Assembly: GCF_008807075.1 (NCBI RefSeq)
Contig: NZ_CP035632.1
Location: 372,001 to 436,000, forward strand
DNA length: 64,000 bases
Direction of reading: 5' to 3'
From: Synechococcus sp. RSCCF101
GTDB taxonomy: Bacteria; Cyanobacteriota; Cyanobacteriia; PCC-6307; Cyanobiaceae
Shown here one piece after another: positions 11,245 to 60,697 of the stretch. The position numbers were made by a program, and so were the translations under genes. The notes under the pieces were generated by a model. That model saw only the letters and a program-made list of their open reading frames with translations. It searched no databases and had not been told where the DNA came from. Position 1 is the first letter of the stretch; the number at the start of each line of letters is the position of its first letter.

Positions 11245-11648
11245 GGTGGGACGCCCCCATCATCCCTCACAACACCATCACTCTTGAAGATGAGCCTGTA
11301 GTAGAAGGACTCCACATGCTTGTGCCACTTCCCTAGCCTCAACTCATCCTCCATGTTCTCTCTCCTGGTTCCCCAGGCGAGGTTCTCAAGACGGTTGTCA
11401 CTACCGACACCATTCAGGTGACGGCCCTCATAGGCTGGGCTTGGCCTTAGACCTACGAAGGCAGACAACACTAAGCAGTGGACCTGGTAGGTCTTCTTGA
11501 GGATGTTGACCTGCTTGTAGCGTTTCTTGTAACCAGTCTTTTGTTGTCTGAGGACTCTAAGAGTCTTAGCGTTCCTCACGTTCCCAGCATCAGAGACCTC
11601 ATACCCAAGCTCAAAGGGGATAGGTCTCCACTGTTCTTCAGTTGTCAT
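11199..11648 (-). CDS. NUMOD4/HNH homing endonuclease, C-terminus replaced by IS sequence
   Basis: A free-standing or intron-borne homing endonuclease. The start at 11648 gives MTTEEQWRPIPFELGYEVSD, the NUMOD4 motif (residues 4-25), followed by an HNH domain (about 65-115) with HCLVLSAFVGLRP, RHLNGVGSDNRLENLAWGTRRENMED and the usual LGKWHK end. The conserved part is complete. The last 16 or so residues are read from the IS256 end, so the original C-terminus is lost. It lies just downstream of a highly structured non-coding segment and the terminase gene, the usual arrangement for a mobile intron or an intergenic homing gene. Confidence 0.85.
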   Translation of the reverse strand: MTTEEQWRPIPFELGYEVSDAGNVRNAKTLRVLRQQKTGYKKRYKQVNILKKTYQVHCLVLSAFVGLRPSPAYEGRHLNGVGSDNRLENLAWGTRRENMEDELRLGKWHKHVESFYYRLIFKSDGVVRDDGGVPPSGVNPEKQHRLRRC

Positions 11649-11699
11649 TGGAATGTACTGAATGTATCGGTACAATCGGCTGTGACTTAAATCACAAGC

Positions 11700-11985
11700 C
11701 TGTCATCGACCACTACTCAATCGGCAAACACCCCAATAGTGGGTGTTGTGTCGGTGATCCTGCCTCCTACCTTCGGTACTCGTTGGAGCCCGATGGTGGT
11801 CTCCCCCCTTCGGGACTCGCCCAACGGGCAGGGAACAGCCCTTGTCATTGTTGTCTTATTTAAGGACTGGTCTTCCTGAGAGAGGCCCTATCTCCCTCTC
11901 AGCTACTAGCCAGTCCAGTTGTCTTAGTCAGATGGACCCACGTCTGAGCGATGGGTCTCTTCCGTTACGGTACACTTCTCAGATC
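11700..11985 (-). ncRNA. Candidate structured RNA (possible group I intron) after the phage terminase
   Basis: This segment has no open frame but holds several perfect stems. 11727-11733 pairs with 11741-11747; 11759-11764 with 11827-11832, stacked on 11781-11786 with 11821-11826; inside these are CCCGA/TCGGG (11789-11814) and a TACC-TTC-GGTA hairpin. 11864-11870 pairs with 11910-11916, enclosing 11876-11882 with 11896-11902; 11935-11940 pairs with 11952-11957. Nested multi-branch pairing next to an HNH endonuclease gene suggests a self-splicing intron, but I could not identify the conserved P7 core with certainty. The strand is assumed from the neighbouring genes. Confidence 0.45.
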
Positions 11986-11989
11986 CCAG

Positions 11990-13205
11990 TCAGGGCCTGG
12001 CTTTTGTCCAGGTCTCAATCCGACCCGATCCACTGAGGCGTCTCTGGGCTGTTCTGAGGGGGATGCCCATGGCCAGAGCGTCTACAGCAGTCTGGGGCTC
12101 CTCAAGGAAGAGGTCCATCATAATGCTGAACTCCTCTGCCTTCCGTTGGGCCTCTGCCTTGTGAGCTGAGATGGCCAGGGCGTCGATGAACCACTGGACC
12201 CCTTGGGCCAGGCAGTCGGCTCTGTCGTCATGCTTGACGGCTCCCTTCTCCCGACACATGCGTGTCAGTTGGTAGCTGAGCATGTAGGCAAGTCTTCTTT
12301 CTGGGGCTTCCTCTGGGTTGGAGTGGTAATCCCACTCAATTACCTTGGGGTCAATGACCAGCTTGTGCTGGTTCAGGATGGGCTCCAGGGCGTCGATGAT
12401 CCGCTCCTCCTTACGGACAGAGGCACGGACCTCCTCGACCCCTGCATGAACCTGCATCTGGACCATGTGCCGCTTGAGCAGCTCCCCGAACATGCCATCC
12501 CCGAAGTTGGACTCGTAGAGGATGGTGGTGGCCTTGTACTTCTTGGCCATGTTGAGCATGGCGACCAGGGTGGCATCGCTGTAGCCGTCCCTCCAGGCAT
12601 CCATGGCCCTCAGGAAGATGTAGCCGTTGCACTGGCTCAGGACACAGGCTGTGGCCTCGTCCTTGCCTCGACCGGAGGGGTCGATACTCAGGATGGTCTC
12701 TGTGTAGTCCCTGATCCCCTCCTCGACGTACATCGGGCTGTACCAGCGGTCCCCAGGAAGGCCTACAGCGGGCAGATCCTTCAACAGGTATCTTGGGGTC
12801 CGACGACCACTGATAGCGGGGTGCACAGGTCTCTGAGAGGCCAGTGACGACGAAATCGGAGAACCGCAGTGGGAACTTCTCCGCATCCGACAGGGTGGTG
12901 TTGAGCTGGAACTGGAGTTGGAAGTTGGAGCGGCCCATGTGGCACTCCCTCTCCATCAACTCCCGATCACTGAAGCGTGAGTCAGCGGGGGAACCAGCTT
13001 TTGCTCCCTTGTTCAGATCTTCCTCAATCTCAGGGGCCAGCCTTCCCTCGTACAGGATGATGTCATTGGGGTAGCGGCTAGGCCATTCATAGGCCTCATA
13101 GCCTTGTTCCTCCAGGTCGCGGTAGACAGAGGACATGATTTGGGGGCTTTCCCAGGTAGAGCAACCGCCTAGTGTGCTGTTGGGGGAGGACAGACTCGTC
13201 TTCAA
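11990..13205 (-). pseudogene. T7-like phage terminase large subunit, truncated and frameshifted
   Basis: Remains of the DNA-packaging motor of a T7-like cyanophage. Two overlapping frames join into one protein. The first (13205 to about 12795) includes YEAYEWPSRYPNDI, FQLQFQLNTTLSDAEKFPLR and PRYQWSSDP. The second (about 12800 to 11990) includes the nuclease-domain motifs LSIDPSGRGKDEA, YESNFGDGMFGELLKRH and the HDDRADCLAQGVQ motif. These are hallmark T7 gp19 sequences. The frame change lies near 12790-12800. The N-terminal ATPase half (about 240 residues with Walker A) is missing, as the homology stops at about 13205. It is followed by structured RNA and a homing endonuclease. Confidence 0.85.
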
Positions 13206-13398
13206 GTCATCACGAAGGCCGCTTCAACAAGTAAATGAAAACGCCTGAGGCCTGGAGGAATCTCGCACCATCAGGTTCTCAGTCTATGGTGGAACGTAAC
13301 TCAACTAGACAGAGGTGAACAGCACTATTCTGCCGTGAGAAGCCATGATAGATGAATGCTCATACCATTGAGTATCTGCGCTGTGTATTCGCAGTCTA

Positions 13399-14472
13399 TC
13401 AGCTATCTTCTGGTACTCCGCTCTCCCAAGCCTCACTATCCTCCTGCTCTGGCTGTTCGCTAGCTGCTTCACTGTGCGAAACAACCGAAAGGAGGCGCTC
13501 CCCTTGTGCTAACAGGTGATCATAAGTCATTATCCTGATCCCAGATAGTCTCGAGTTAAGTCCGTGCAAAGCCTTGTGCTCCTCTGTGCTCCAACTGACT
13601 GACCTGCAAATGACGATTGTTGCTCGTGGGTGGTATGCAACGATCTCAGGGTGATCCCGCATTCCTTGTTCGGCTACAGAGTGAAGGACATCCATATACC
13701 GATGGCACTGCCCTATGGCCTTTGAGACTTCGGAGGAGAAGTAGTAGCTTCTATGGCTCTCATCACGAATTAAGACAGCCATGTCTAGCCGCTTCAGTTC
13801 AGCAATATCCCTGTACCCTGCGATCACGTTTGATAGCATCATATCAAGCTGATCATGCGGACTGATCGCCCTAACATCCTCTGGAGATACAACATAAGCA
13901 TTGCCAAGTGCCCAAGGATGTTGTTCAATCCACCGTTGGTATGTCGCTTCACTATTCTCTTCCTGCTCAAGGTAACCTCTAAGGGCCATGACGGCAGATT
14001 GCATTTCTCTAAGCCTTATTGCGCCTTTCAAAGCCGAGACAAGTTCGTCTGATTGGTCACAGGTCCCAATATGAGATACGACATCCTTGCTCCCAAGTAC
14101 CGTTGCAAGGGCCCCTGCCAAATACTCGGGATCGTATTCTCCAAGATCCGCCACTCCTTCGTCAACCCGAACTACAATGTAGTTTCCGTCTTCTCGGTTG
14201 GCTATCTGTAAGTGACTTGTTAGTGCTGGAAGCAGTCTCCGTGCCGCGGCTTCTTGCAGCGACACCGACTTCTCTTCTCTTAGAATCCATTCGACGGGGG
14301 GCTTGCCCTTTCTGTATGTCTGTATCTTTACTGTCATCTCCTGATGGTCGGAGTGCTGAATAAAGAATGGCACGAAAACAATTCGTGAACTTCTACACTC
14401 GTGATGAACAACCTGATCCCCATAGCTTAGATTTCCAGAGCTAGCCTCTCTACGACTGATGTTCTCTACCAT
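13399..14472 (-). CDS. sduA: Shedu-type anti-phage nuclease (SduA, DUF4263)
   Basis: A 357-residue protein matching the single-gene Shedu defence system. The C-terminal nuclease domain shows the PD-(D/E)XK pattern typical of DUF4263: YQRWIEQHPWALGN (about 178-191), Asp210 in HDQLDMML, Glu225-x-Lys227 in IAELKRLDM, and the Gln/Tyr motif of SKAIGQCHRYMD (Gln255, Tyr259), then a PRATIVICR strand and a GLNSRLSGIRIMTYDHLL end. All presumed catalytic residues are present. The N-terminal 160 residues are the variable sensor part. Known family role: nuclease activity that stops phage infection. It stands alone as a transcription unit between phage remains and membrane-protein genes. Confidence 0.88.
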   Translation of the reverse strand: MVENISRREASSGNLSYGDQVVHHECRSSRIVFVPFFIQHSDHQEMTVKIQTYRKGKPPVEWILREEKSVSLQEAAARRLLPALTSHLQIANREDGNYIVVRVDEGVADLGEYDPEYLAGALATVLGSKDVVSHIGTCDQSDELVSALKGAIRLREMQSAVMALRGYLEQEENSEATYQRWIEQHPWALGNAYVVSPEDVRAISPHDQLDMMLSNVIAGYRDIAELKRLDMAVLIRDESHRSYYFSSEVSKAIGQCHRYMDVLHSVAEQGMRDHPEIVAYHPRATIVICRSVSWSTEEHKALHGLNSRLSGIRIMTYDHLLAQGERLLSVVSHSEAASEQPEQEDSEAWESGVPEDS

Positions 14473-14511
14473 GGTTGATAGCCTGACTGGGCATAGATTA
14501 GTCCTTATCTC

Positions 14512-14580
14512 TCACCATGTCGTTCAGCGAAGCAGCTCCTTCCCGGAGCGCTGCTGAGGTGAATGCCATTCTGGGCAGAG
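14512..14580 (-). pseudogene. End fragment of an IS481-family transposase
   Basis: On the minus strand this reads CPEWHSPQQRSGKELLR and a stop, the same C-terminal ending as the IS481 fragment at 52560 (GWRSPQQRLRELLC and stop). The flanking bases (CTCACCA-GT-GTTCAGC) are also shared. Only about 70 bases survive. Confidence 0.6.
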
Positions 14581-14895
14581 TAATTTCTCAGGTGGTCAGA
14601 AATCGACTCTGAGAGTCTAGTGATCAATCCCAGTCCTCCAGAACCTTGGCGATACCGCATTAAGTCCTTACGACAAGTTCAATAACACCAGAACGACTCG
14701 CGAAACCACAGACGGTGTCGTTACCTGGTTTGCTACTAACGCTTTGATCTATGCTAATATCAATCGGAGCCCCTATAGCTAACATCCACTGATTGATATT
14801 GATCGACTTGCTTTGTTAACGGCCACCTCCTGTATCAGCTTCCGCCCCCCTTCTCGCCAAACTCTTCCTTCGACTCCAGGTTACGGGTTACTCAC

Positions 14896-15567
14896 TTATT
14901 CATTTGCGGGAGTCTCTCTTTTTCTTTTCAACGACCTATATCGAGCCCGAGGTGTTGGTTCGTTCTGACTACACTGCTTGTGCAGATAGTCCTGGCTACC
15001 TCCAAGGGCTTCAGCAGCTACAGCAGTAAGTGCCCTGCGGAGATCGTAGTAACTCGTATACAAGGATTGCTGGGTTTCGTCTTTATGCATTGAGAGGCCA
15101 GAACTTAGATCCGCTTTCGTAACCCGCACGTCTTGCATGAAAGCATCTACTTCTGATGCAACGCATGGGCTAAGCTGGGTTATCTCTGAGGAGGCAATCT
15201 CAAGATTCCTGGAAATGCGTTCCAATGTCTTTTTGTCAGACTCGCTTACAGGGTTCTGTGTATCCACTCCCTTATATGAGATCTGAAGCAACGTTGCCAT
15301 CTCTTTTTCGAGCTTATCGCGCTTTCGAAGAATCGTATTAATATCGTCTCTTCGAATCGTGTCTATCTCAAGTTGTCGCTTCTGAACAGTTTCAGCCACG
15401 CATTGGGTAATCGCCAGCAGAGCAGCAGCAATGACACCGATGACAGTCTTGTCAACAAGTCTATCGACAAGATGATTGCGACTGGTGTCTTTGGGCTGAA
15501 TCACATAGCGTCCGAACTTCATACCAGCAGTCAGATAGTACCTAAGCCTGTGCTGGCGTAGCACCAC
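14896..15567 (-). CDS. Membrane-anchored coiled-coil protein of unknown function
   Basis: A 223-residue protein with one hydrophobic segment near residues 40-58 (TVIGVIAAALLAITQCVAE) followed by a long charged helical region (about 60-200) with heptad-like spacing (RDDINTILRKRDKLEKEMATL). It ends with a basic tail rich in Arg and Lys. It overlaps the upstream gene by 26 bases, so the two are probably co-expressed. I do not recognise a family. The placement between a Shedu gene and a patatin-like phospholipase makes a defence role possible but unproven. Confidence 0.65.
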   Translation of the reverse strand: MVLRQHRLRYYLTAGMKFGRYVIQPKDTSRNHLVDRLVDKTVIGVIAAALLAITQCVAETVQKRQLEIDTIRRDDINTILRKRDKLEKEMATLLQISYKGVDTQNPVSESDKKTLERISRNLEIASSEITQLSPCVASEVDAFMQDVRVTKADLSSGLSMHKDETQQSLYTSYYDLRRALTAVAAEALGGSQDYLHKQCSQNEPTPRARYRSLKRKRETPANE

Positions 15568-16291
15568 AGTGTCGATCGGTTGAGAAAAGCCACTCTGTCA
15601 CCCTATCTCTTGAGTCTGATATGGTGAGCCTCCAGCGAGTGGCATTGCCGGGATAAAACAAGTCCGCCCCGAAGTGGTCAATGTATCCAAACGGAGAGTC
15701 GCTCTGCTGGATTGTTGTCTTGTTGCTATTTCCCTTGTATTTCTCCCCTGTAAAGTCTATCTTGGCTGTGAGATTTCCTTTGGGGGGATTGATAACCTCA
15801 ACCCATACAGCAACTGCCCTGCGATTCTCGAGATGGCTCCACCTATTGGTTTCTACGGTGCTATCTTGATAGTCTTTCAATCGGCTAAACAGCTCTTCTC
15901 CCAACGGCAGACAAGAATCTATAGCGGTATACTCAGGACTGGGTCCTAGCGTTACAGTCGGTGTTGCTTGTACTACACCTCGCTGCTTAGACAGCCACTG
16001 AAAATCACTGTAATTCAATGGTTTGCAACGCATTCCTGGTACGTATCCGTTTGGACGACATATATCCCTCTCCCTTGCGAAGATTACCTGCATTCTGACT
16101 TTAAGCGGTGGAGCAGACGAGCTCAGTGATGACTGAGACCTCAATAGCCGGTCTCCCATCGATTGACGTAGTCCACCAATCTGATTCTGCTTCATTCCTC
16201 CGCCAATAGAGAGTGCACCAAATCCGCAAAGTGTGATAGATGTGAGCAAAGCCAACGATGACCCTATAACAAGTGTCTTCGGAGTAACCAT
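15542..16291 (-). CDS. Exported or membrane-anchored protein of unknown function
   Basis: A 249-residue protein that begins with a hydrophobic signal anchor (residues 7-30, TLVIGSSLALLTSITLCGFG). The remainder looks extracytoplasmic and beta-rich, with four or more cysteines (DICRPNGYVPGMRCKPL, DSCLPLG, DRHCGATP) that could form disulfides and a middle segment AVWVEVINPPKGNLTAKIDF. It is the first gene of a two-gene unit and overlaps the next by 26 bases. No family recognised. I infer that the pair forms an envelope complex. Confidence 0.65.
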   Translation of the reverse strand: MVTPKTLVIGSSLALLTSITLCGFGALSIGGGMKQNQIGGLRQSMGDRLLRSQSSLSSSAPPLKVRMQVIFARERDICRPNGYVPGMRCKPLNYSDFQWLSKQRGVVQATPTVTLGPSPEYTAIDSCLPLGEELFSRLKDYQDSTVETNRWSHLENRRAVAVWVEVINPPKGNLTAKIDFTGEKYKGNSNKTTIQQSDSPFGYIDHFGADLFYPGNATRWRLTISDSRDRVTEWLFSTDRHCGATPAQA

Positions 16292-16818
16292 TCTGGCAAG
16301 AATCGACAGTTGTGGATTTGGACTAAGTTTCGCCTAGACTACACTTGGCCGTACCGTGCCTTAATAAGTCTGGGGGTGAAGGTCTGCTGGAAATCCAGCC
16401 GATACAGCCAAGTCGGAGTATGAGGACGCAGGTGAGTTACCATTGACGTGTTCTATTGACGAGCACCCTATTCTGGCTTGGATCAAGTAAATTGCAACTC
16501 GCTCTACATCCACGTGGGCGAAACTGCTACAACACCGCCCCTGACTACCAACAAGCCTGTTGACGTTAGAATTGAATAGTCTGGGATCTGTAGAGCGCTG
16601 GTCATTTACATGTAAGTTGTCTCAATACCTACACCCAATAGCTGACGGGAATAAGGATACATCAAGTGCTGTGGAGCGAGAAGTGAATAGGGAGTCAGGG
16701 AGTCTAAGCGCCAGGATTAGTTGCCTAGCCTGAATCAATGCTTATATGACAGCGTTTCCAGAGAAAATCTCAGATTCACTATGTTAACCCAGATCGTCCT
16801 AAGTCCTAGAGTTATGCT
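16292..16818. other. Intergenic region without recognised gene
   Basis: About 530 bases between two minus-strand genes. No open frame of useful length or clear repeat is seen. It should hold the promoter of the gene starting at 16291 and the transcript end of the patatin-like gene. Confidence 0.5.
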
Positions 16819-17841
16819 CTAACCATGCCGCTTTGGCATGCCAGTGGATCTTTCAATGCTGTCTAGAGATGGCCCAGAATAGCGGCTAGTCAGGAGAGCA
16901 ACGGTGCTATCACCGTATTGCTCAAACCAGTAGTCGCCCATCCTTTTTAGCTTCAGAATATTTGACCGACTGATGTCATCCATTGCGTCATCTGGAGGCT
17001 CTTGCATCCAACTCTTCTTCTCCATATCAGAATCGACTCTGATGTAAGTCCCCTTACGGGCCAGAGTTATTGCCTGATACGCAACGATACGTTCGTCGGT
17101 CAAAAGATCCAATATCTGGCCCCTTACAAACCAACCAATGGCACCCCAGTTCCGAGATTCGGGTCCATTTATCTTTCGTGAGCGGTAACCTGTCCCAACC
17201 GACAAGATTCGCATTTCGTCAATTGAGGTGTCCCACTCACGCTTTGCTTCTGCTATAGCGCACATAGTCGGATTGTTGGCGACCACGCCACCGTCAACAA
17301 GCCAGACTTCTTTCCTTTCATTCCCTATAGAAAGCCTTCTGGTAGGGAAGTAAGTCGGTGCAGCGCTTGAAGCGTCTGCAATGCGATAAGACAGCAGTTC
17401 CCTATAAGCCGTATCGGTTGATTTGATGACCATCGGCTGGCGTTTCTCGATAGCGTAGGTGACAACCAAGACATGCTTGCCTGAAGCTACATCTCTCAAT
17501 CTGGCCTCTCTCATCGCATTCTTCAGCACCCTTGTCTTGTTCTTTGACTCATATTTCGGCGCATTAATCCCGTCAATTTCCAAGAAGCCTCGATTGTCGG
17601 TGAAGATTGCTCTTGCATTCTCGTGATTGTACAGGTTGCAAATCTCATTCACCGTTAGCTTCGTAGTGGCTAGCGCGAGGGCGATTATGCTTCCAGTGCT
17701 TGTTCCTGCGTAGAAGTCAACATAGTCTCTAATAGACTTTCCGTATTCCCTCTTAAGTCTGTCCTCAACACGTGAGAGGAACTGCGCTGATGCAGCTCCT
17801 CTAATTCCTCCTCCATCCAATGAGAGGATCATCTTGTTCAT
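16819..17841 (-). CDS. Patatin-like phospholipase (CapV-type effector candidate)
   Basis: A 340-residue patatin-like lipid hydrolase. The oxyanion-hole motif DGGGIRG is at residues 9-15, the nucleophile elbow GTSTG at 46-50 (Ser48) and the catalytic Asp in LVDGG at Asp183, giving the complete Ser-Asp dyad. The layout matches bacterial patatins, including the CapV effectors of CBASS that degrade membranes after a cyclic nucleotide signal. No cyclic nucleotide synthase (CD-NTase) or Cap2/Cap3 gene is visible nearby, so it is either a stand-alone lipase or an effector parted from its sensor. It stands alone on the minus strand in a defence-rich island. Confidence 0.85.
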   Translation of the reverse strand: MNKMILSLDGGGIRGAASAQFLSRVEDRLKREYGKSIRDYVDFYAGTSTGSIIALALATTKLTVNEICNLYNHENARAIFTDNRGFLEIDGINAPKYESKNKTRVLKNAMREARLRDVASGKHVLVVTYAIEKRQPMVIKSTDTAYRELLSYRIADASSAAPTYFPTRRLSIGNERKEVWLVDGGVVANNPTMCAIAEAKREWDTSIDEMRILSVGTGYRSRKINGPESRNWGAIGWFVRGQILDLLTDERIVAYQAITLARKGTYIRVDSDMEKKSWMQEPPDDAMDDISRSNILKLKRMGDYWFEQYGDSTVALLTSRYSGPSLDSIERSTGMPKRHG

Positions 17842-18517: not shown

Positions 18518-18694
18518 CGAGCAACCAGCAGCAGCCTGCATCACTCCCTTGCTGCCCACCTCCTTGAGCGGGGACTGGACATCCGCACCATCCAGGAGCA
18601 GCTGGGTCACACTGATGTGATGACCACCATGCTCTCAACACATCTTCTCAATTCTGGTCCTCTGGGTGTCTCGAGCCCGACAGACCTTCTGTAG
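18518..18694 (+). pseudogene. 3' remnant of an integron-type tyrosine recombinase (IntI/XerC-like)
   Basis: A 58-codon open stretch reads [20 protein letters not shown], then [38 protein letters not shown] and a stop. This follows the C-terminal signature of IntI enzymes, RATSHxxRHSFATHLLERG...DIRTVQ.LLGH.DVSTTM.YTH followed by a G.GV.SP.D ending. The second catalytic Arg (HxxR) is replaced by His and the nucleophilic Tyr (YTH) by Ser, and an in-frame TAG lies just upstream, so it is dead. The following attC-like site supports an integron origin. It points the same way as the cassette, which is rarer than the divergent layout. Confidence 0.75.
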
Positions 18695-46117: not shown

Positions 46118-46191
46118 CGGGGCGTGGCGCAGTTTGGTAGCGCGGGTGCTTTGGGAGCACTAGGTCGCAGGTTCGAATCCTGTCGCCCCGA
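46118..46191 (+). tRNA. tRNA-Pro (anticodon TGG)
   Basis: A full cloverleaf: acceptor CGGGGCG/CGCCCCG, D-arm GCGCAGTTTGGTAGCGC, anticodon arm GGGTGCTTTGGGAGCACT with TGG in the loop, T-arm GCAGGTTCGAATCCTGT, discriminator A. CCA is not encoded. The sequence after its 3' end switches from core to accessory DNA, so it is a likely integration site. Confidence 0.95.
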
Positions 46192-46482
46192 TTGAGATCT
46201 CAGAGGTTTTGAGGGCAGGGTATGCCCCAATTCATGCCCCTCTTGCGCTGCGCCTGCGCCACATCTGGGTTCCCAGGTCGCCTAGGGCCCCATATGTGGT
46301 GGTGATGGCTGGGCATATGGCGGAAGACGCGGCTATAGTCAAAGCAACCGAGCGGGGGGGCATGCCACCTCCGCCAGGGTTGGGAGACACGCAAGCTCCT
46401 GACCTGCCTGATGTCGCCACTTCCTTGGGTCCGCTTCAGGGGGAGTTGATACGCAGGGGGCGCCCTGCGCAATGCATCCCTT
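46192..46482. other. Junction between tRNA-Pro and accessory block 2
   Basis: About 290 bases with no convincing gene. It should contain the element edge and the promoter for the small genes from 46483 onward. No copy of the tRNA 3' end was found as a direct repeat in the window. Confidence 0.4.
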
Positions 46483-46845
46483 ATGGAACACCCCAATCAC
46501 GATCAATCTCAGCGTCAATACCCCCTCTTCAGAGACTTTCGGAAGAAGAAAGAGCGGCCTGCTCCTAGGAATCCTGATGGGAGCATGAAGAAGACGGTAA
46601 CCAGGTATATTCATGGCCGCCGGGTGACGCTTCCTATAGATCAGGCAGACATGTTCTGTTACTGCCTTGACTTGTGCAAACGAGATCCTGTCTTTAGGGC
46701 GGAAGTAAGAGCCAACGCCGAAAGCAGTCAATATAGGCGGAAGCTGATCTTTAATCCCAAGTATCCGGGACTTGGTGGCTACATAACACAGACTACATGT
46801 AAGAAACTTCTTGAGTTTCTTCCGTGTCAGCTGCGAGAAGCCTGA
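46483..46845 (+). CDS. Hypothetical small basic protein (120 aa)
   Basis: A 120-residue basic protein with no family I recognise. The N-terminus is hydrophilic and rich in Arg/Lys/Pro (FRDFRKKKERPAPRNPDGSMKKTVTR). The C-terminal part is more ordered, with Cys at several positions (MFCYCLDLCKRD, TTCKKLLEFLPCQLRE). Probably nucleic-acid binding. It precedes, by 13 bases, a DNA-binding-like gene in an integrated element next to tRNA-Pro. Confidence 0.55.
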   Translation: MEHPNHDQSQRQYPLFRDFRKKKERPAPRNPDGSMKKTVTRYIHGRRVTLPIDQADMFCYCLDLCKRDPVFRAEVRANAESSQYRRKLIFNPKYPGLGGYITQTTCKKLLEFLPCQLREA

Positions 46846-46858
46846 TCAGCAACTGGTC

Positions 46859-47137
46859 ATGGATCAAAATACAGACGTTGCACCCTTGTGGGTGCCAACT
46901 CCAGCTGCTTGTAAGGCGATAGGGCTTCCGTCGGAGAAGTCCCTCTGGACGTTAAAGGCTGCGGGCATTCTTCAGCCGGGTCTCCACTTTATCGTTATCG
47001 GAACCAAGCGTTCTGCCCCTCATCGGTGGAATGTGATTGCTTGCCTTGAGGCATTAAGAGATAACACTCGTAGAGTGTATTCAGATGGTCCCAATATTGA
47101 AACTTACAGCGAGCCTGGTCTAGGCAATCAAAGCTGA
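46859..47137 (+). CDS. Small DNA-binding (excisionase-like) protein
   Basis: A 92-residue protein: VPTPAACKAIGLPSEKSLWTLKAAGILQPGLHFIVIGTKRSAPHRWNVIACLEALRDNT. This has the look of a winged-helix recombination-directionality or regulator protein of cyanobacterial integrative elements, with a helix-turn-helix around SEKSLWTLKAAGIL and a wing around HFIVIGTKR. I chose ATG 46859 because residues before it read poorly. In the element it precedes the primase-helicase gene, as Xis/regulatory genes do in satellites. Confidence 0.6.
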   Translation: MDQNTDVAPLWVPTPAACKAIGLPSEKSLWTLKAAGILQPGLHFIVIGTKRSAPHRWNVIACLEALRDNTRRVYSDGPNIETYSEPGLGNQS

Positions 47138-47226
47138 CTAGCACAATATCTAGAGGCGCTCGCCTTGTGTGTCGAGCATGAAAGTCTGTGCGGGTATCTA
47201 TTTCAAGCACATTATGCCGTGAATCC

Positions 47227-50189
47227 ATGTCACCATCTTTATCTACAAACCGCAAACATCCTGGGAGGCAGCGATTTCGCCCGAGCTCCCCGACGCATCC
47301 TTGCCCTGTTTGCGGTCGTGAAAACAAGGGCTCTTGTCGTATCGGGGACCAAGGTCTTGTTTTCTGTCATCACGGGACCACCCATCATCCACCCAACTGG
47401 GCCCGGAAACCCGGCGATCATGGCCCCGGCGCTGATGGCCGTGAGTGGGCGTTTCTGCGACGCAATGTCGATGGGAGGACGTCTTCCTTCCGTCTGCATC
47501 AGGAGAGAACTCCTGGTTTGCTCCCCTCAGCTCGTTTCCCTCTTCGACGCAGAGTCAGGTGACATCGGCAACCACTCGACTGCCCGATCGGATTGACCTC
47601 TCCACGGTCCCTGAGGGGACCACGATGGTCGACCTCGATCGAGAGCGGGCCCGTTATCGCTATGGGCCTTCGCAGGAGACGAGACGCGACCCGAAGCAGA
47701 CCGGCAAGGTCATGCCCTACGTTCCCGGTCGAGGTCCCGGCGGGTGGAGACCAGGGAAGGGTTCGGACCCCTGGCCTCTCTTCGGTACGGTCGTGCCTGG
47801 CTGGCTCATCGAGGAGGAGGGCGAGCGATGCGTCGGCTTGGTCCTTGAGGCGAACCTCGCAGCGATCACACAGCCCGGCCACGACCACAGATCCCCGGAG
47901 ATCGAACGCCGCTACCGGGAGCTCCTAGAGGCCGGCGGCGAAGGGATCGTCTACATCTCGGACAACGACGACCAGGGACGGCGGAAGGCGGAGAAGTGCG
48001 CCGAAGTGGCGGAAACCGTCGGCCTCCCCTTCCTACACCTCCCCGCCACGGAGATCTGGCCCCGTCTCCCCGACCATGGGAACATCGACGAAGCACCCGG
48101 AACGCCCGAGGAGCGGCGTGAGGCGATTGAAAGAGCGATCGCGCGCAAGCTCGAGCAGCTCGCTTCAGAGCGGCCCGGGGAGGCCGGAGGGGATCCGGAC
48201 GACGAGACGTGCTCCGTCCTCGACGACGCGGGGAACCTTCATCGACGACTCGACGAAGGACTCCGACAGATCGACGACCTTCCCGATCCGTCCGTTCGGG
48301 CCGTGGCGATGGTCCAGCTCAAGAAGACTCTCGGCCTACGCGATGCCGAGTTCGGGGCCCTGATCGACGCGATCATGCGGCGGCGACGACCGATGAGTCC
48401 CTCGTCCTTCGAGGAGCTCATGGCCGGCGGTAGCGAAGCGCCGAAGCCCGCTGTCGAGGATCTCTTCTCGTCGGGCCTCACCGTCATCGCCGGGGAGGGA
48501 GGAGCCGGGAAGACGGCCCTCGGGTACCTCGTCGCCGAAGCCGTAACGCAGGGCGAGAAGTTCGCCGGGCAATTCAAGGCGGAGAAGTCTCCGGTCCTGA
48601 TCGTTCAGGTCGACGAGTCGCCGACGAACGCCCTCACGAAGTGGCGGCAGATGGACCTCAAGCCGGAAGCGGGAACACTGACTGTCGATTGGGCGATGAC
48701 CGCTCACATGCTTCCGGAGCTAAAGCAGCGGATCATCGAAACCGGCGCGAAGGTCGTCGTCCTCGATTCGATGGTCCGCATTCTCGGGGGTCAGATCAAG
48801 GCGGGCGATCCGGACTTCGGCCTCTTCGTTTATCGCCTGAACGATCTCGCCGACGAGCTTGCCGTGACGATCATCCTGATGCACCACGTCACGAAGCCCA
48901 GCGAGCGAGCGAAGAAGCGGGTCGACATCACGAAGCACGACATCTTCGGATCGGCCTATGTCGTCAACGGAGCCTCCGACGTCTGGGGCTTCTGGTGCGA
49001 CCACGAGGACGGGAACCCGGAGAAGGTCTTCTCCCTTCGCTGCCTTAAGAGCCGCTCTGGCCTGGTAGAGGAGGGTACGACGTACGAGTTCGAAGGCAAC
49101 CGCGAAGACCTCCGCCTCGTCTATCGCGGGATGGCGGACCGAACCGTGACGCTCGACGAGATCAAGACGACCCGAGGTCGGGTCCGCAGGTTCCTGGCAT
49201 CTCGGGCGCCCGCGGCGTTCTCGCCCGCTCAGATCAATCGGGAAATGCGGATCGGAAATGAGCGGTACGTCCGGAAGCTGTGCGGCGAGCTGTACCGGGC
49301 CGGAGAGGTCGAGCGGAAGGAGCTCCCGTCGTCCCGCGGTCGGAAGGCTTACGGCTACTTCCGCCTCCCCTCGCGCGCGTTACGGGGTAACCATGCCGAA
49401 AGTACCGAAAGTACCGAAAGTCCCCCCTCATTTCGGTCTTTCGGTCCCCCTTCCGGTACCCCTGCGGTACCCACTTTCGGCACCCCGGGCGAAGCGAGAG
49501 AACGTAGTGAGAGAGAGGAGAGAGAGGTAGAGGAGAGAGAGTTGTGGTCCCCTTGCCCCCTCCCCTCTCCGTCAGAACCTCCGAAGTCGGTTCATCCGCC
49601 CGTCGAGGTCCGAATCGACGGCACCTGGCAGAAGGGCTTTCGGCAGATCGGCCCCGGCATTTCGGCGACCGGAGGGCCCTTCGTCCTCGTCACTCGGGAC
49701 GACACCGGCGAGGAGCTCCGTCTCCCGCGCGGCGACGTCCGCAACCCGGAGGCCGGAAAGACCAATCCCCGATCGCCCGGACAGGTCGATTACAAGGACC
49801 CGAACTGGAACGACCCCATCTGGCACGACAGCCCCTTCCCAACACCCTTGTGGAACGTCGAGGTCCCGGACGACACCGTCGAGCTGAAAGGAGATCGACT
49901 TCGCGCCTGGTTCCGCGAGATCGGCCTCAACTGGCTTGCTGACAAGATCGAGGCCGACGACGCAAAGGAGAAGGCCCTGGAGGAGGCCGAAGCCCGCGGC
50001 GACTTCTCTCACTGCCTGATCGACGCTTCAAAGGCCGTGCCTCAACGCACCGACCGTCTCCGGCGGACTTGTGCGGCGTTCGCGCCTGCCCGCCTTCATG
50101 CCTACGCCGGCCGGAACATGCCGATCCCGGTGGACATCCTTGACGAACCGGCCAAACCGAAGCAGGAGGCCGGGGAAGAGGCGGAATGA
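47227..50189 (+). pseudogene. Primase-helicase of an integrated element, one frameshift
   Basis: The replication gene of the element. The N-terminal frame (from ATG 47227) encodes a zinc finger, CPVCGRENKGSC..GDQGLVFCHHG, and a WAFLRRNVDGRTSSF stretch; near 47500-47530 reading moves to another frame, which runs to 50189. This part has a Toprim-like IVYISDNDDQGRRKAEKC, then a RecA-like ATPase with Walker A VIAGEGGAGKTALGY (48484-48528), Walker B KVVVLDSMV (near 48760) and HHVTKPSERAKKR, and a winged-helix-like C-terminal part. A Glu/Ser/Thr repeat (ESTESTES near 49400) and an Arg/Glu-rich segment form a linker. Without the frameshift it would be about 990 residues, typical of primase-helicases in cyanobacterial elements. 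Confidence 0.8.
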
Positions 50190-50658
50190 CGGCCGCGGCC
50201 CTTCGGCGCCTGACGAGTTCGAGGCATTGATTTCCAGCCCGAAGATTCCCTCCCGCCCGCCTACGGAGGCCGAGCTCGACGCCCTGGGCCTCGGGAGATC
50301 GATCCCGCTACGGCCCGGCGAACCGCTCGAGCTCGACGAACTCGGCTACGCGACCCGTCTCCCTTTCTGGCAACAACCTCCCGCCGCCTCCTCCGATGAC
50401 CTCCGCCCATCTCACTCGTCGTCCGGGCTGCCTCCTTCCGCGATGGAGACCGTCTCGCCCTTCGAAGTCGCTTCCCAAGCTCAGCCGCTGCTGTCCGCGC
50501 TGGAAGCCGTTCCGCTCGCGATGCACGTCGTCCGTGATCTTCAGAGCCGGGATCCTCGAACCTTGCTCGCCCGGGGCCTCCTCGTCGAAGTTCACGGCCG
50601 GCTCCATGACCTCCTGCTCGATGACTTCCCTCCCGGCTCCCGTGATGCCCGACGCTGA
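50190..50658 (+). CDS. Hypothetical protein downstream of the primase
   Basis: An open frame that overlaps the end of the primase gene and is protein-like from about 50209 on: DEFEALISSPKIPSRPPTEAELDALGLGRSIPLRPGEPLELDELGYATRLPFWQQ, then a helical region VPLAMHVVRDLQSRDPRTLLARGLLVEVHGRLHDLLL. The start is unclear; TTG at about 50228 is possible. No family recognised, but the pattern of short motifs and its position suggest an accessory protein of the same element. Confidence 0.5.
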
Positions 50659-50740
50659 TCGTCGTATCGAGGTCGAACAGGAGGTCGAGGTCTTCATCCG
50701 CTCCTTGGACGTCGCTGAGTTCGTGAGAGCAACCGATTGA
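50645..50740 (+). CDS. 31-residue acidic ORF
   Basis: MPDADRRIEVEQEVEVFIRS and on to the stop; starts inside the end of the previous ORF, which suggests coupling. Helical and acidic. Too short for a family call. Confidence 0.35.
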   Translation: MPDADRRIEVEQEVEVFIRSLDVAEFVRATD

Positions 50741-50755
50741 GCCACCGCTCGTCTG

Positions 50756-51016
50756 ATGCCTAGCTGTCTCGAGGCGCTTCGACCCTTCGAGCTTGATCGA
50801 GGAATGACGAAGACAGACCTCAGAGCAATCGAAGCGATGTTCACTCGACAATTCAAGCGAAGAGAGCGCGAACGCCGAGAGCAGAGGCAGGCCGCAGAAC
50901 AAAAGGCCCCCTACTCCCCCTCTATCGGAACCGGATTGGAACTCTCCACCGATCGCCTCGCGGGTCCTCCCGGCCCACATACCCCTTCGGGTGCCAAGGC
51001 CCCAAGTTCTGGGTAG
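50756..51016 (+). CDS. Small basic helical protein (86 aa)
   Basis: An 86-residue ORF with a charged helical middle (TKTDLRAIEAMFTRQFKRRERERREQRQAAEQKAP). The end is Pro/Gly rich and less protein-like. Could be a DNA-packaging or regulatory helper in the element. No family recognised; the start (ATG 50756) lacks a clear ribosome site. Confidence 0.35.
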   Translation: MPSCLEALRPFELDRGMTKTDLRAIEAMFTRQFKRRERERREQRQAAEQKAPYSPSIGTGLELSTDRLAGPPGPHTPSGAKAPSSG

Positions 51017-51176
51017 CGCCACACCTCAAACGGGATTACGGAACTTTGATTGTGGTAAGCGGCTGTGGCAGCTGGATCACAACGAACGCGCGAGAGAGAC
51101 CATGTCTGGCATTGTTTGTAACTGGTTTCTTCTGGTTACGGATGCTCGGTAGGCTGAGTCATGATTTCGAGGGACT

Positions 51177-51671
51177 GTGGTGATTTCACCTCATGAGTAC
51201 GGTCGCCGCCGAGGTGTGACTGGCCACGCCGTGAGGAAGTCGATCCATGACGGCCGACTGAGTGAGTCAGTGACCAGAAAGGGCTCGCGATATTTGATTA
51301 ACCCGGAGCTGGCCGATGCTGAGTGGAAGGCAAACACCAGGCCGACCTGCCGGCCCACGGAAGCCTCCCACCGGCCGACGCTGTCTAGTGTCAAGCGCCT
51401 CACCCATGCCGAGGGAGTGGCAGCGAAGGTGAGTCTTCAGGCTCACCTCCTTGAACTAGAGGTGCTGGAGCGCGAAGGACAGCTGCTGGACGCTGACAAG
51501 GTGCGACGGCAGGTAGAGCTGAGCTTTCGCGAGCTGCGCGATCGAATCTTGAATGTGCCCGTGCGGGTGGCGTCACTGGTGGCTGCTGAGACCGACCCAA
51601 GACGGGTGGAAGAGCTCATGCGACAAGGACTGGAGGACGCGCTTGAGACTTTCGCGGAGGGGGCAGCCTGA
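51177..51671 (+). CDS. Nu1-like phage terminase small subunit
   Basis: A 164-residue protein with an N-terminal winged helix-turn-helix of the Nu1/terminase small subunit type (ISPHEYGRRRGVTGHAVRKSIHDGRL), then a basic strand region ending LADAEWKANTRP, a long helix (HAEGVAAKVSLQAHLLELEVLEREG) and an acidic C-terminus. This order is usual for small subunits that recognise the packaging site on phage DNA. It starts at GTG 51177. No large subunit, portal or capsid gene follows, so it may redirect packaging of a helper phage, as in phage satellites. Inferred from layout. Confidence 0.7.
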   Translation: MVISPHEYGRRRGVTGHAVRKSIHDGRLSESVTRKGSRYLINPELADAEWKANTRPTCRPTEASHRPTLSSVKRLTHAEGVAAKVSLQAHLLELEVLEREGQLLDADKVRRQVELSFRELRDRILNVPVRVASLVAAETDPRRVEELMRQGLEDALETFAEGAA

Positions 51672-52559: not shown

Positions 52560-52910
52560 TCAGCAGAGCAGCTCCCTGAGTCGCTGCTGAGGTGAACGCC
52601 AGCCGAGGGCCGAGTGCTTCCTCAGTCGGTTATAGATCGACAGGTAGCGAGGGAGCCAGCGGTTTCGCTCCTCCGAGTTCTGGAACGCCATGGTGTAGGC
52701 CCATTCCCGGCAGAGCGTCTGGATGAATCGCTCTGCCTTGCCGTTGGTCCTGGGGGTGTAGGGCCTGGTCCGGATGTGCCTGAGCCCCATGGCCACGCAG
52801 GCCACGGCGAACTGCCTGGAGACGTATGCCGGCCCGTTGTCCGACATCACCCGCCGGCACTCGATCCTCTGTTCGTTGAACCACGCGACGGCTCTGGCCA
52901 GAAAGCCGAT
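52560..52910 (-). pseudogene. IS481-family transposase, 3' part
   Basis: The last 115 or so residues of an IS481-type DDE transposase: IGFLARAVAWFNEQRIECRRVMSDNGPAYVS, RHIRTRPYTPRTNGKAERFIQTLCREWAYTM, ending LGWRSPQQRLRELLC. The second Asp (SDNGPAY) and Glu (KAERF) are intact, but the homology stops at about 52910, where unrelated sequence begins, so the N-terminal half and one end are missing. Confidence 0.8.
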
Positions 52911-53256
52911 CACGATGAATAATGTTACCAGAGAGCTGACGGCCGAATGGCAGAAAGAAATCCCTAAGCGAGAGCTGATGACGATGCTCACGCCGGTACA
53001 TGTGGAAAACCCTGGGGAGCTTTTTCGGGCGGAATGCGCCAACTTGCTAACAGTCTACTGCCCCAACCTCCGCAGACTCGTTGCGGCCCAGTTGGTCCGG
53101 ACTTTCTCAGTAAGCCCTGCTTCAGACGAATAAGTGATTGGCGCGATACAGGTGGCTGGCCGCTCCATCGACAGGCGATAGTCTTATCTTCGTAGAAAAC
53201 CTTTCACCCGTGATTGAAAGAACAAGATATGTCTGGACCAGGTTCACGCCACCAGC

Positions 53257-55689
53257 TCAGTCCTGCCTGCTAAGGAAGCCGGGAACAGCCTCGGCTTTGA
53301 GGGGTCTACTGAAGAAGTACCCTTGCCCCTGGGCGCAGGATCTCCCTTTCAGATGAGCAAGCTGTTCCGTAGTCTCAACCCCTTCTGCAATAACAAGCAG
53401 GTCCAGAGCAGAACCAAGAGCAATAACGGCATCTGCGATTGCAACATCGTCTCTATCCTCTGGTATGTCTCTCACAAAAGACTGATCGACCTTGATCTTG
53501 TCGACTGGCAGAGTCTTGAGATAAATCAGCGAGGAGTAACCCGTCCCAAAGTCATCAATTGAGATCATTATCCCCAGAGCCCTTAAAGCCTTGAGCTGAG
53601 CTACCGAGGTTTCATCAAGGTGCATCACAAACCTCTCTGTCAACTCAAGCTCCAGCCGGTCTGGCTGGAGTCCGGATTCGTTGAGCGCCTCTCTCACATC
53701 GGAGACAAAGTCGTGATGGTGAAACTGTTGGGCCGCGACATTGACCGCTATACGACCGATGGGAACTCCAGCATCGATCCAGGCCTTTGCCTGAGTGCAT
53801 GCCATCTTAAGAACAAGAACGCCTAGGGGCCTGATCAGTCCAGTCTGCTCAGCCACAGGTATAAAACGCGTAGGAGTGATGATTCCCTTCTTAGGATGCC
53901 TCCAGCGGAGAAGAGCCTCTAGCCCTGTTGTCTTTCCGCTAGACAGGCTGACCTGCGGTTGATACGCCAAGAAGAACTGCCTCTCGGCAATGGCATCTCG
54001 AATTGCGGATTCCAGGAACAGGTGTTCATAGGCCCTCTCTGTGAACGCGGGAGAGTAAAAGAGATAATTGTTTCTACCGTTCTCCTTCGCGTGGTACATC
54101 GCTGCATCGGCGTTGGCCAACAACTCGGATGACGTGTTGCCGTCATCGGGATACAGTGCAACGCCAATGCTTGCAGTAACGTGTGTCTCCAGTCCAGGTA
54201 ATACAAATGGCTTCTCAAAAATGCCTCGGATCATCTGGATAATCTGGGAAACATTCTCTGGCCCCTTTGTTTCGGTCAGCAAGATGACAAACTCATCGCC
54301 GCTGATGCGTGCAACGCAGTCACTTGATCGGACTGAGCTGCCGAGTCGCTTCGAGATCTGCAAAAGCAGCTCATCTCCCGCAGCGTGCCCCAAGGTGTCG
54401 TTAATGTTTTTAAAATGATCTAAGTCTAGAAATGCGACTGCCAGTTGTGTCTGGTTTCGAGCAGCTAGCTGCATGCTAAGGCTCAGCCTCGAGTCAAACA
54501 GCAAACGATTGGGGAGCCCGGTCAGTGGATCATGGTGTGCGAGAAACTCAAGCATCTCCTTGTCGCGCTTAACATTGCTCACGTCGGCACAGATGCCTAT
54601 GTATTCCTCAGTCATGCCTTTGTCGTCGGTGACGGCGTTGATGCTTAGGAGCTGGGGGTAGACTGTGCCATCCTTCCGTCGGTTCCAGATCTCCCCACTC
54701 CAGCTTCCGTGTTCACGGACTGATCTCCAGAGATCCTGATAGAAGGAAGTCGAATGACGACCCGACTTCAGGACTCTTGGATTCTGACCAATGATCTCCT
54801 CTCTCTTGTATCCTGTGATTTGCAGGAACGAGTCGTTGACTTCCCTGATTTCGCCGTCGGGACTCGTAATCAGAATCCCTTCTGATGTTCTGTTGAAGAC
54901 GGTTGACGCACGCCTAAGTCGCTCATGGGACTGCTTTAGCTCAGTTACGTCCTGAGCCACCATATAAAAGAGTTCTTCGGTCTCTGAATACGCAACAGAC
55001 GCGTTGAGGTAGACATAAGAATCACCATCAAGGAGCAGACGGAACTGACAGGGTTGTCCCTCTGGACTCTCCAGCCTGTTCTCGCGTAGTCTGTTGAACT
55101 GCTCTTTGTCCTCATCATGGACAAGGTTGATAAGTGACGCACCTGTTAATCGGCTAGTCCCCTTTGGCTTGTGATGATCTGACCAGGCTTCGTTGGCTCG
55201 CAGTATTTTCCAATTGCCGTCGGCAATGATATTAAGGGACATCTGCTGATTAAAGAAGCCATCCATACGGAGCTGGCTCTGACGCTCAGATGTGACGTCA
55301 ATAATCACACTGTCCCAAATCGTATCGCCATTCTCCTGGCGAGTTGGCGTCCCAGTTCCATTGAGCCATTTTAGCCTGCCTGAAGGGGTCTTGATTCTCC
55401 ACTCGTGCTTCCAAAAGGTGAGTTCACGAGCAGAGGTCTTAATCGATCTGTAGAGCCCGATCACGTCGTCCTGAACGACTAGATCCCATAGAGGGGTTGC
55501 ATCTGAGGACACTTGATCAGCAGGAATCTCCGAAAGATCCTCACAACCTTTATTGGTGTAAGAAACTGAGTCATGACCGCTTGCATAGCGTCGATACTGG
55601 AAGACAGCAGCTGGAATACCGTCAACAATCTCACGGAATCTATTCCGATCTACGCCCTCTGACTTTCCACTCGGTTGGTTCGCGTTCAT
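53257..55689 (-). CDS. PAS-GGDEF-EAL cyclic-di-GMP signalling protein
   Basis: An 810-residue soluble protein. PAS domains lie at about 15-135, 145-260 and 265-385 (the last with the typical NRTSEGILITSPDGEIREVNDSFLQITGYKREEIIGQNPRVLKSG). The GGDEF domain (about 395-550) has FLDLDHFKNINDTLGHAAGD and SGDEF in place of GGDEF (near 462), so cyclase activity is doubtful. The EAL domain (about 565-805) has GLEALLRWRHP, an ELTER motif, SIDDFGTGYSSL and VIAEGVET, all typical of active phosphodiesterases. It probably degrades c-di-GMP. Lower GC than core genes; flanked by IS481 remains on both sides. Confidence 0.92.
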   Translation of the reverse strand: MNANQPSGKSEGVDRNRFREIVDGIPAAVFQYRRYASGHDSVSYTNKGCEDLSEIPADQVSSDATPLWDLVVQDDVIGLYRSIKTSARELTFWKHEWRIKTPSGRLKWLNGTGTPTRQENGDTIWDSVIIDVTSERQSQLRMDGFFNQQMSLNIIADGNWKILRANEAWSDHHKPKGTSRLTGASLINLVHDEDKEQFNRLRENRLESPEGQPCQFRLLLDGDSYVYLNASVAYSETEELFYMVAQDVTELKQSHERLRRASTVFNRTSEGILITSPDGEIREVNDSFLQITGYKREEIIGQNPRVLKSGRHSTSFYQDLWRSVREHGSWSGEIWNRRKDGTVYPQLLSINAVTDDKGMTEEYIGICADVSNVKRDKEMLEFLAHHDPLTGLPNRLLFDSRLSLSMQLAARNQTQLAVAFLDLDHFKNINDTLGHAAGDELLLQISKRLGSSVRSSDCVARISGDEFVILLTETKGPENVSQIIQMIRGIFEKPFVLPGLETHVTASIGVALYPDDGNTSSELLANADAAMYHAKENGRNNYLFYSPAFTERAYEHLFLESAIRDAIAERQFFLAYQPQVSLSSGKTTGLEALLRWRHPKKGIITPTRFIPVAEQTGLIRPLGVLVLKMACTQAKAWIDAGVPIGRIAVNVAAQQFHHHDFVSDVREALNESGLQPDRLELELTERFVMHLDETSVAQLKALRALGIMISIDDFGTGYSSLIYLKTLPVDKIKVDQSFVRDIPEDRDDVAIADAVIALGSALDLLVIAEGVETTEQLAHLKGRSCAQGQGYFFSRPLKAEAVPGFLSRQD

Positions 55690-56040
55690 TCGTGGATGGC
55701 AAGGAGAAACCTTCTATGTCAATGGTGCCCACATGTCGCGGCTCTGGCAATACAGGGCCGAGTTCGGATCACATGCCCTGTTGAGCCGGGCATAGACAGT
55801 GAACGCGTCATCCATATGCCCTGGAGGCTCGACTTTAGGTAGCGACGAGCTGCACAGTAATGGTTCTCATTCTCTGGCTCAAGTTGGCGCTAGGCGTTCT
55901 GTCTCTGTAGGTTCTTCAAAGGCCAATGAGGTGTGATGCCGCTATGGGTGAGGTGCGACCCGCCAACCCAGATCTCACACCTCTAGGCATATCCATCCGA
56001 ATGCCCGCCTGACTCAGCGGGGTCGTCATCGGCTGATCTG
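55690..56040. other. Region without recognised genes
   Basis: About 350 bases between the PAS-GGDEF-EAL gene and IS481 debris. No open frame with a family signature. It should include the promoter of the signalling gene. Confidence 0.4.
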
Positions 56041-56680
56041 CCAGCACCTCGTTCAGGGCCGTTCTCTGCCTGAACTCGCTGCTGACGCTGGGATCAGCCT
56101 GCGCTGCGCCCCACAATTGGCTGGCGCGCTTCCGGTCAGGCGGTCCAGCGGCACTGGAAGATCGGCGGAGTGTTCGGCGCTAACAGCGGTGGCATCTGCG
56201 CCACATCGCCCGACTGCTGGCGGCTCCTCATCCTGGAGGCCAGACCGCTGGTCAAGCGCTATGTGTGGAAGCGAGCGGTCACCCTGATCTACGTCGCGGT
56301 GGACGACGCCACACACCAGGCTTACGTGGAGGTGGAGGCCGACGCGCAGAAGCCCACCGTCATCGGCTTCCTGCCCTGAGCCGTCCCCTGGTTCAGCGGG
56401 CAAGGGTTCGAGTGCCGGCGGTTGAGGACGGATAATGGATAGGCGTACGTCTCCTGGCAGTTCACCGTGTCATGTAGGGCCATCGGGCTCAATCACATCC
56501 GGACCAGGCCGTACACCCCCAGGACCAACGGCAAGACAGAGCGATTCATCCAGATGCTTTGCCGAGAGTGTGCATACGCCATGGCCCTTCAGAACTCGGA
56601 GGAGCGCAACCGTTGGCGGCCTCGCTGCCTGTCGATCTATAACCAGCTGAGGAAGCACGCCGGCTTCGGCTCTGTGCTTG
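56041..56680 (+). pseudogene. Decayed IS481-family transposase
   Basis: A second IS481 copy, in plus orientation and carrying stops. KRAVTLIYVAVDDATHQAYVEV is followed by VIGFLP, a stop, AVPWFSGQGFECRR, LRTDNG, a stop, and HIRTRPYTPRTNGKTERFIQMLCRECAYAM, then SIYNQLRKHAGFG where homology ends. Upstream parts are in shifted frames. It is related to, but not identical with, the copy at 52560. Confidence 0.75.
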
Positions 56681-56792
56681 ATAACGGATTGGAGTTCCTG
56701 AATGATAGATTCGATATGAATGGATCGCTACCTTCTTCTGGTCGCGTGCAACAGCATTGTGACACGTTACGTTCACCCTCCTGCTTTGATTC

Positions 56793-57482
56793 ATGAGCAG
56801 CCACTACCAGGGCAAGTTTAGTTTCATCTTTGACAGGAACAGGCTTCCTTTGCTGAAGCCGATTTTGTTGCCTACAACCGAGAAGGGAGCGTTGGGTCGA
56901 ATTTGGGCAGCAAGTCGCCGACGATCATTCACTCTTGAATATGAGTGGAAGGCTACGATAGCTAATGCCAACTTCGCGTCTCATCTCAATGGAGAGATTA
57001 TTATACCTGTTGAGCATGGTGGCAAGCCATTAGAGTTCGACGGAGCTTCAGTCCCGATGCCTTGGCTCGTTGGAATGCTCAGCTTCGGGGTCTTGCGTCC
57101 CCTTGGTATTCTTCTGACGGCCTCGATCGTTCACGACTACGCTTTCTGCGCAGGTGGGCTTAAGTATTCGTCCGGTGATTCCTTCCGTGTCGTTACTCGA
57201 CAAGAAGCGGATAGGCTCTTCCGGGAGATTGTTACAGACGTGAACGAGATGCCCTTCTGGGGTTTCTTGGCTTGGTGTGCCGTCCGACTAGGGTGGGTAA
57301 TTGGGATCAAGTATGCGGGTAAGCGCTTTACTGAGAGCCCACCTTGGCTCCCACTAGTGGTTCTATTCGCAGTCATCACAGCCCTCACTCTGATTGTCAA
57401 TACTCTCGGCTTGACGACATTCGTCTTATTGACAGTAGCGATCTATGCACTGGCCTACACCGTACGTGCAGCAATCGACTGA
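56793..57482 (+). CDS. DUF1353 membrane protein
   Basis: A 229-residue protein. The DUF1353 domain (about 50-165) has the family pattern EIIIPVEHGGKPLEFDGASVPMPW, LTASIVHDYAF, EADRLFREIVTDVNEMPFWG and AWCAVRLGW, with conserved Asp, His-Asp and Met residues. The C-terminus adds two hydrophobic segments (WLPLVVLFAVITALTLIVNTLG and FVLLTVAIYALAYTV). Family members are often encoded by phages and prophages; an envelope role has been suggested but I know of no proof. It stands alone in the second accessory block. Confidence 0.75.
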   Translation: MSSHYQGKFSFIFDRNRLPLLKPILLPTTEKGALGRIWAASRRRSFTLEYEWKATIANANFASHLNGEIIIPVEHGGKPLEFDGASVPMPWLVGMLSFGVLRPLGILLTASIVHDYAFCAGGLKYSSGDSFRVVTRQEADRLFREIVTDVNEMPFWGFLAWCAVRLGWVIGIKYAGKRFTESPPWLPLVVLFAVITALTLIVNTLGLTTFVLLTVAIYALAYTVRAAID

Positions 57483-60292: not shown

Positions 60293-60697
60293 GTGAAGGT
60301 AATACCAAACGCTGGGCAGATTGTTGTCTGCGACTTTGGCGGCTACCGGGAGCCCGAAATCATCAAGCATCGACCCGTTGTCGTTATTTCTCCAAGACCA
60401 AGAAAGGTTACTGCGTGGCTATGCACCGTTATTCCATTTAGTACAACCTGGCGCCCCGCAGGACCGACCAATCACCTGGTTGTGCTGAGCAGCCCGCTCC
60501 CTCACCCCAAGTATCCAGCAACAAGGATGTGGGCGTTATGTGACCTTCCAGCGACTGTAAGCGTTCAGGACCGCCTGACCAATTTCAGCAAGAGGACCAC
60601 ACCTGGCGGTCGAAGGGTCTTTCAGGATGTCTTCGTCTCCAAAGATGATCTGAATATCATCAGGGCGAAGGTCAAGGCCGTCCTCGGCATCTCATAG
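60293..60697 (+). CDS. PemK/MazF-family toxin
   Basis: A 134-residue mRNA-interferase-like protein. Family features: NAGQIVVCDFGGYREPEIIKHRPVVVISPRP at the N-terminus, TAWLCTVIPFSTTWRPAGPTNHLVVL, WALCDLPATVSVQDRLTNF. The conserved Arg-Pro-Val-Val-Ile strand and the second-strand Cys-Thr-Val-x-Pro are present. It starts at GTG 60293 with AAGGTG about 9 bases upstream. No antitoxin partner is visible, so it may be an orphan, or inactive. Possibly a stabilisation remnant of an element. Confidence 0.85.
   Translation: MKVIPNAGQIVVCDFGGYREPEIIKHRPVVVISPRPRKVTAWLCTVIPFSTTWRPAGPTNHLVVLSSPLPHPKYPATRMWALCDLPATVSVQDRLTNFSKRTTPGGRRVFQDVFVSKDDLNIIRAKVKAVLGIS

Follow-up and report, generated by a model that had tools for sequence, protein, structure and literature searches.

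A short run of phage-like genes reads away from a tRNA-Pro gene in Synechococcus sp. RSCCF101, and its layout raises the question of whether a phage satellite, a truncated phage or a chance gathering of insertions occupies this site. We analysed a 64,000-nucleotide stretch, called the window here (positions 372001-436000 of the 2.98 Mb single-contig genome); coordinates are window positions unless stated otherwise. A preliminary description had proposed a phage satellite or integrative element at tRNA-Pro, possibly in decay. The gene order and the existence of relatives bounded by tRNA 3'-half repeats support the first part of that proposal, and a truncated integrase, a missing distal att repeat and a frameshifted primase bear out the second. 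We hold with good confidence that the locus is the tRNA-proximal part of a decayed, tycheposon-like integrative element of the phage-satellite type, integrated in the 3' half of tRNA-Pro(TGG).

The tRNA-Pro(TGG) gene found by ARAGORN (46118..46191, plus strand) is intact, and at this point the GC content falls from about 0.70 on the left side to 0.57 directly on the right. Location at a tRNA gene, together with this GC break, is what a tycheposon-like tRNA element would lead one to expect. The 3' part of the gene (46147-46191, plus strand) corresponds to the att core used by relatives, whose elements are bounded by 42-46 nt copies of the tRNA-Pro(TGG) 3' half. The direct repeat of the tRNA end that had been suggested as a check is present at the distal boundary of intact relatives but absent from RSCCF101: with up to 3 mismatches allowed, the 3' half has one copy in the genome, and no distal repeat was found either in 40 kb or genome-wide. 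The outer boundary of the element is therefore undefined, and for the same reason we class the locus with decayed, tycheposon-like elements and not with the intact ones. Among the relative loci that were fetched, neither an empty tRNA-Pro site nor a conserved right flank was found; because these loci have no flanking synteny in common, the right boundary could not be set. Elsewhere in the window, a second low-GC region spans 1-24000 and includes an integrase fragment (18518-18646).

Downstream of the tRNA, a small basic gene, an excisionase-like gene (xis), a primase-helicase gene, small ORFs and a gene for a terminase small subunit (TerS) all lie on the plus strand. This one-directional layout, which had been read from the sequence in the preliminary description, was confirmed by ORFs, ARAGORN, Pfam and PHROG searches, and by profiles built in frame from other genomes only, with the window sequence excluded. 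When all ORFs of the window and the next 20 kb (84 kb) were searched with these window-free profiles, those for xis, helicase and TerS matched exactly one ORF each. The first gene (46483..46845, plus strand, an ORF) encodes a small basic protein of 120 aa for which no database match was found. In three relatives (G003A, G013 and G261) the element likewise opens with a small basic gene; the similarity between these and the RSCCF101 gene is loose. The second encodes an excisionase/AlpA-like HTH protein of 108 aa (46811..47137, plus strand; profile-matched ORF 46787-47134; E=4.1e-13), which matches by blastp the xis-position genes of L048, L049, L038 and L037; some xis genes of relatives have weak matches to PHROG excisionases.

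The primase that follows is interrupted by a frameshift near 47510-47590. Its N-terminal zinc ribbon (47188..47559, plus strand) was located by tblastn with homologues L043 and L045, each of which is one ORF, and is read in a different frame from the TOPRIM-like part. The latter and a RepA-type AAA_25 helicase make up the main reading frame (47445..50189, plus strand; profile-matched ORF to 50186), with support from Pfam (AAA_25, E=2.4e-20), PHROG (phrog_239 primase/helicase, 2e-15) and the window-free profile (E=4.4e-120). The best helicase match, with 46% identity across residues 76-595 of the 607-aa query, is in G270, where a single ORF encodes both zinc ribbon and helicase and lies, with xis and an integrase next to it, at tRNA-Thr. 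Two or three putative small ORFs come next (50071-50658, 50396-50740 and 50756-51016, plus strand, each called as an ORF alone); no Pfam or PHROG family was matched at a useful E-value within 50071-51016. In another genome (L044 of G111, 7996-15748), xis and helicase lie directly downstream of a tmRNA gene without an integrase between; tmRNA, too, apparently serves as a site for the xis-helicase module.

The module ends in a Nu1-type TerS of 164 aa (51177..51671, plus strand; profile-matched ORF 51165-51668), which matches phrog_57 over residues 1-162 (E=1.7e-20) and the window-free profile (E=3.3e-22). Homologues of this protein sit directly before the large terminase in Synechococcus phage MinM1, in Pseudomonas phage ZRG1 and in L049. 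Beside the front module of RSCCF101, no large terminase, portal or capsid gene was found, in line with what had first been reported; the island yielded no large-terminase homologue, and the whole genome no member of the GpA family. The gene set that marks a prophage (large terminase, portal, capsid and tail genes) was likewise not found in the island. In the remainder of the island, PHROG matches pointed to transposases and cargo, and phrog_1158 was the sole structural name among the best 25 of 44 families. TerS-like genes of relatives, labelled terSc, were not counted as terminases; they had no PHROG support as such. A separate locus in L048 (G032, 10289-17453) combines an integrase, xis, a major head protein (phrog_617), an HNH endonuclease and a Nu1-type TerS, with no adjoining large terminase seen, and resembles a capsid-forming satellite in a picocyanobacterium.

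The preliminary description had seen no integrase. A truncated one is present past the window end, 24 kb downstream of tRNA-Pro (window-equivalent 70127-70846, genome 442127-442846, minus strand; profile-matched ORF 70130-70912). A Pfam search of the genome placed a Phage_integrase match at 442190-442723 on the minus strand, and an integrase profile from other genomes only picked out one ORF in the 84 kb (1.1e-92). The remnant is the C-terminal catalytic half; about 200 N-terminal residues are gone, and no significant match to the missing half was found near it. It is 61-62% identical to two integrases of G261, 55% to one from G003 and 52% to one from G013. Maximum-likelihood analysis places it in a clade of integrases (99/98 support), most of which adjoin tRNA-Pro repeats. 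It also faces the tRNA, as do the far-end integrases of G261, G003 element A and G013.

The 18 kb that separate TerS from the integrase remnant consist of IS-rich DNA and genes of ordinary appearance (RecD2, Band 7, Hsp20). The IS-rich part begins 0.9 kb past TerS with a fragment of an IS3-family transposase (52560..53042, minus strand; Pfam rve_3, 7.2e-18), an inverted copy of which, 83% identical over 317 bp, lies near 56355-56671. A GGDEF-EAL gene (53257-55689) is enclosed by these inverted fragments in an arrangement (52560-56800) resembling a decayed composite transposon. The same part of the island contains a DUF1353/phrog_1158 protein (56793-57482; PHROG name tail assembly chaperone), with a homologue in L049 (G123). 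A PemK/MazF-type toxin gene also occurs in the window (60293-60697). We conclude that the element in RSCCF101 is defective. With its distal repeat missing, its primase frameshifted and its interior riddled with insertion sequences, the copy is almost certainly dead and immobile.

What the element once was can be judged from its relatives. Copies of the tRNA-Pro(TGG) 3' half, 42-48 nt long, are scattered near the full gene across the family, and many genomes have tandem elements there. In layout A, an integrase, xis, helicase and TerS are read in that order from a repeat; this set lies between two tRNA-end copies in G129 and G150 and beside the tRNA in G177. In layout B, to which the RSCCF101 locus belongs, the tRNA or repeat is followed by a small basic gene, xis, primase/helicase, a packaging gene or cargo, an inward integrase and a repeat. 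This layout is seen in G261, G003 element A and G013, and its front end in G119 and G053. Looking for the element at tRNA-Pro in other genomes, as had been proposed, recovered elements of the same order and, among the loci fetched, no empty site. These same-site, same-order elements measure 11-20 kb between tRNA-Pro 3'-half repeats, and no capsid or tail genes were recognised in the att-bounded members of layout B. The nearest, a 15.5 kb element in G261, runs from tRNA-Pro through a small gene, xis, primase, helicase and large terminase to an inward integrase and att; it includes large unassigned proteins besides the large terminase, so that an absence of virion genes means here that none were recognised. 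In the same genome (L147 and L149, about 29 kb from the tRNA-Pro at L147 7406), two elements stand in tandem, and both have a large terminase, large proteins without an assignment, an integrase facing inward and a repeat of the tRNA 3' half. Five named single-cell genomes emerged as relatives when genome contigs were scanned by alignment: Synechococcus AG-670-A05 and AG-670-B23, and Prochlorococcus AG-355-N18, AG-436-C13 and AG-436-M02. The same scan of viral contigs gave no relatives, and scans with single proteins were without matches in viral and genome contigs alike.

We favour a satellite over a prophage because the front module and the integrase both match att-bounded elements of 11-20 kb without recognised virion genes. 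The recurrence of site and gene order in the layout B genomes, the membership of the remnant in the tRNA-Pro integrase clade together with its expected inward orientation, and the int-xis-helicase-TerS sets between tRNA-end copies in layout A all point the same way. Counting against this reading are the lack of a distal att repeat and of an empty site with common flanks, the long IS-rich interval (18 kb) with its ordinary-looking genes before the remnant, and the large terminase that G261 has in place of TerS. We infer that the DNA from tRNA-Pro through the integrase remnant was once a single element, and the island probably once travelled in the particles of a helper virus. The ancestral element would have been excised, replicated and packaged with a helper's aid: the far-end tyrosine recombinase and xis would recombine the tRNA-derived repeats to release a circle, the primase-helicase would replicate it, and TerS would bind the element DNA and hand it to the large terminase of the helper phage. 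A MinM1-like temperate cyanophage is a plausible helper, since phages such as MinM1 and ZRG1 have a TerS of the same family, placed directly before the large terminase. The decayed copy in RSCCF101 itself is unlikely to redirect helper packaging.

The main rival is that the locus is a truncated temperate cyanophage which kept its early replication genes and TerS, while an IS-mediated deletion just behind TerS took away large terminase, portal, capsid and tail genes. Loss of large terminase, portal and capsid from the island by deletion is conceivable; the first IS fragment lies close to TerS, and the phrog_1158 protein is also in keeping with a phage. The TerS family is that of MinM1-type phages, in which large terminase and portal come next, and the MinM1 order (zinc-finger primase, further proteins, TerS, large terminase, portal) is formally like that of the window. 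A full prophage at this site in related genomes had been named as the finding that would overturn a satellite. The relatives bear this out only in part. Elements with structural or large-terminase genes do use tRNA-Pro: in G194, an antirepressor, RecT, an exonuclease, a large terminase and a portal lie downstream of it, and in G123, TerS and a large terminase lie beside a tRNA-Pro repeat. However, the early module of G194 differs and no related integrase accompanies it, which makes tRNA-Pro a hotspot common to unlike elements. The replication proteins of the window show no relationship to those of MinM1, counterparts of both front module and integrase occur in att-bounded elements without recognised virion genes, and the PHROG content of the island is as given above. 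We regard a truncated phage as possible but unlikely.

A chance cluster, in which TerS, the xis-primase pair and the distal integrase are unrelated insertions gathered at a tRNA hotspot and never formed one element, would agree with the IS-rich region and the frequent tandem elements at tRNA-Pro. It is quite improbable, given that small gene, xis, primase-helicase and packaging gene recur in the same order and strand in several genomes and that it is precisely in those elements that the closest relatives of the remnant integrase are found. That the satellite is still live and mobilised by an integrase supplied in trans, as once suggested, is scarcely credible: the xis, helicase and TerS frames are largely open, but the genome has no second att copy, its primase is frameshifted, and its other full-length integrase candidates (608858, on a long branch, and 1455688, unmatched by the profile) lie outside the tRNA-Pro clade.

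The decayed satellite can be set beside described systems. Tycheposons of Prochlorococcus and Synechococcus were reportedly presented by Hackl et al. in Cell in 2023. They are described as tRNA-associated elements with tyrosine recombinases in Prochlorococcus (PMC10872708) and as a proposed satellite family (PMC11389934). Set against these accounts and PMC10803314, the RSCCF101 element is likewise a tRNA-associated island in a picocyanobacterium, and its relatives in Prochlorococcus and Synechococcus single-cell genomes have tRNA 3'-end repeats; unlike tycheposons, it has no distal repeat, and the candidate for its tyrosine recombinase is a truncated remnant of the tRNA-Pro clade, 24 kb away and past the window end. 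With PICIs it has in common an integrase, a regulator/excisionase, a primase and TerS, and, phrog_1158 apart, no structural genes were named in it among the best 25 of 44 PHROG families. However, PICI att sites are never occupied by prophages (PMC6092414), whereas the RSCCF101 site is also that of prophage-like elements such as the one in G194, and, within the comparisons made, its genes for replication and regulation proved not to be orthologues of those of PICIs. PICMIs carry int, alpA and a DUF3987/DUF5906 primase next to fis, without terS (PMC10803314); the minimal int, alpA-like and prim set of a marine satellite is similar, but the RSCCF101 element sits at tRNA-Pro and has an AAA_25 helicase and TerS. 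MinM1 (ON981384) has a homologous TerS (28% identity) with a primase before it; it differs in its full virion genes and in an unrelated primase/helicase, and possibly exemplifies a kind of helper, without being related to the element itself. The RSCCF101 locus is an additional, decayed member of a kind of element already described in relatives. That it marks a distinct picocyanobacterial satellite branch, with Nu1-type TerS and a fused TOPRIM/RepA-type primase-helicase at tRNA-Pro and parasitising MinM1-like temperate cyanophages, is a tentative and rather doubtful idea.

Cumulatively, these results bear on the biology of the family as follows: 1) in this cyanobacterial family, tRNA-Pro(TGG) is a hotspot at which both satellite-type and phage-like elements have widely settled; 2) the RSCCF101 locus is a worked example of element decay, in which TerS, primase and a broken distal integrase are left behind; and 3) the intact relatives in G261, G003 and G013 are better suited than the RSCCF101 copy for studying helper-dependent transfer.
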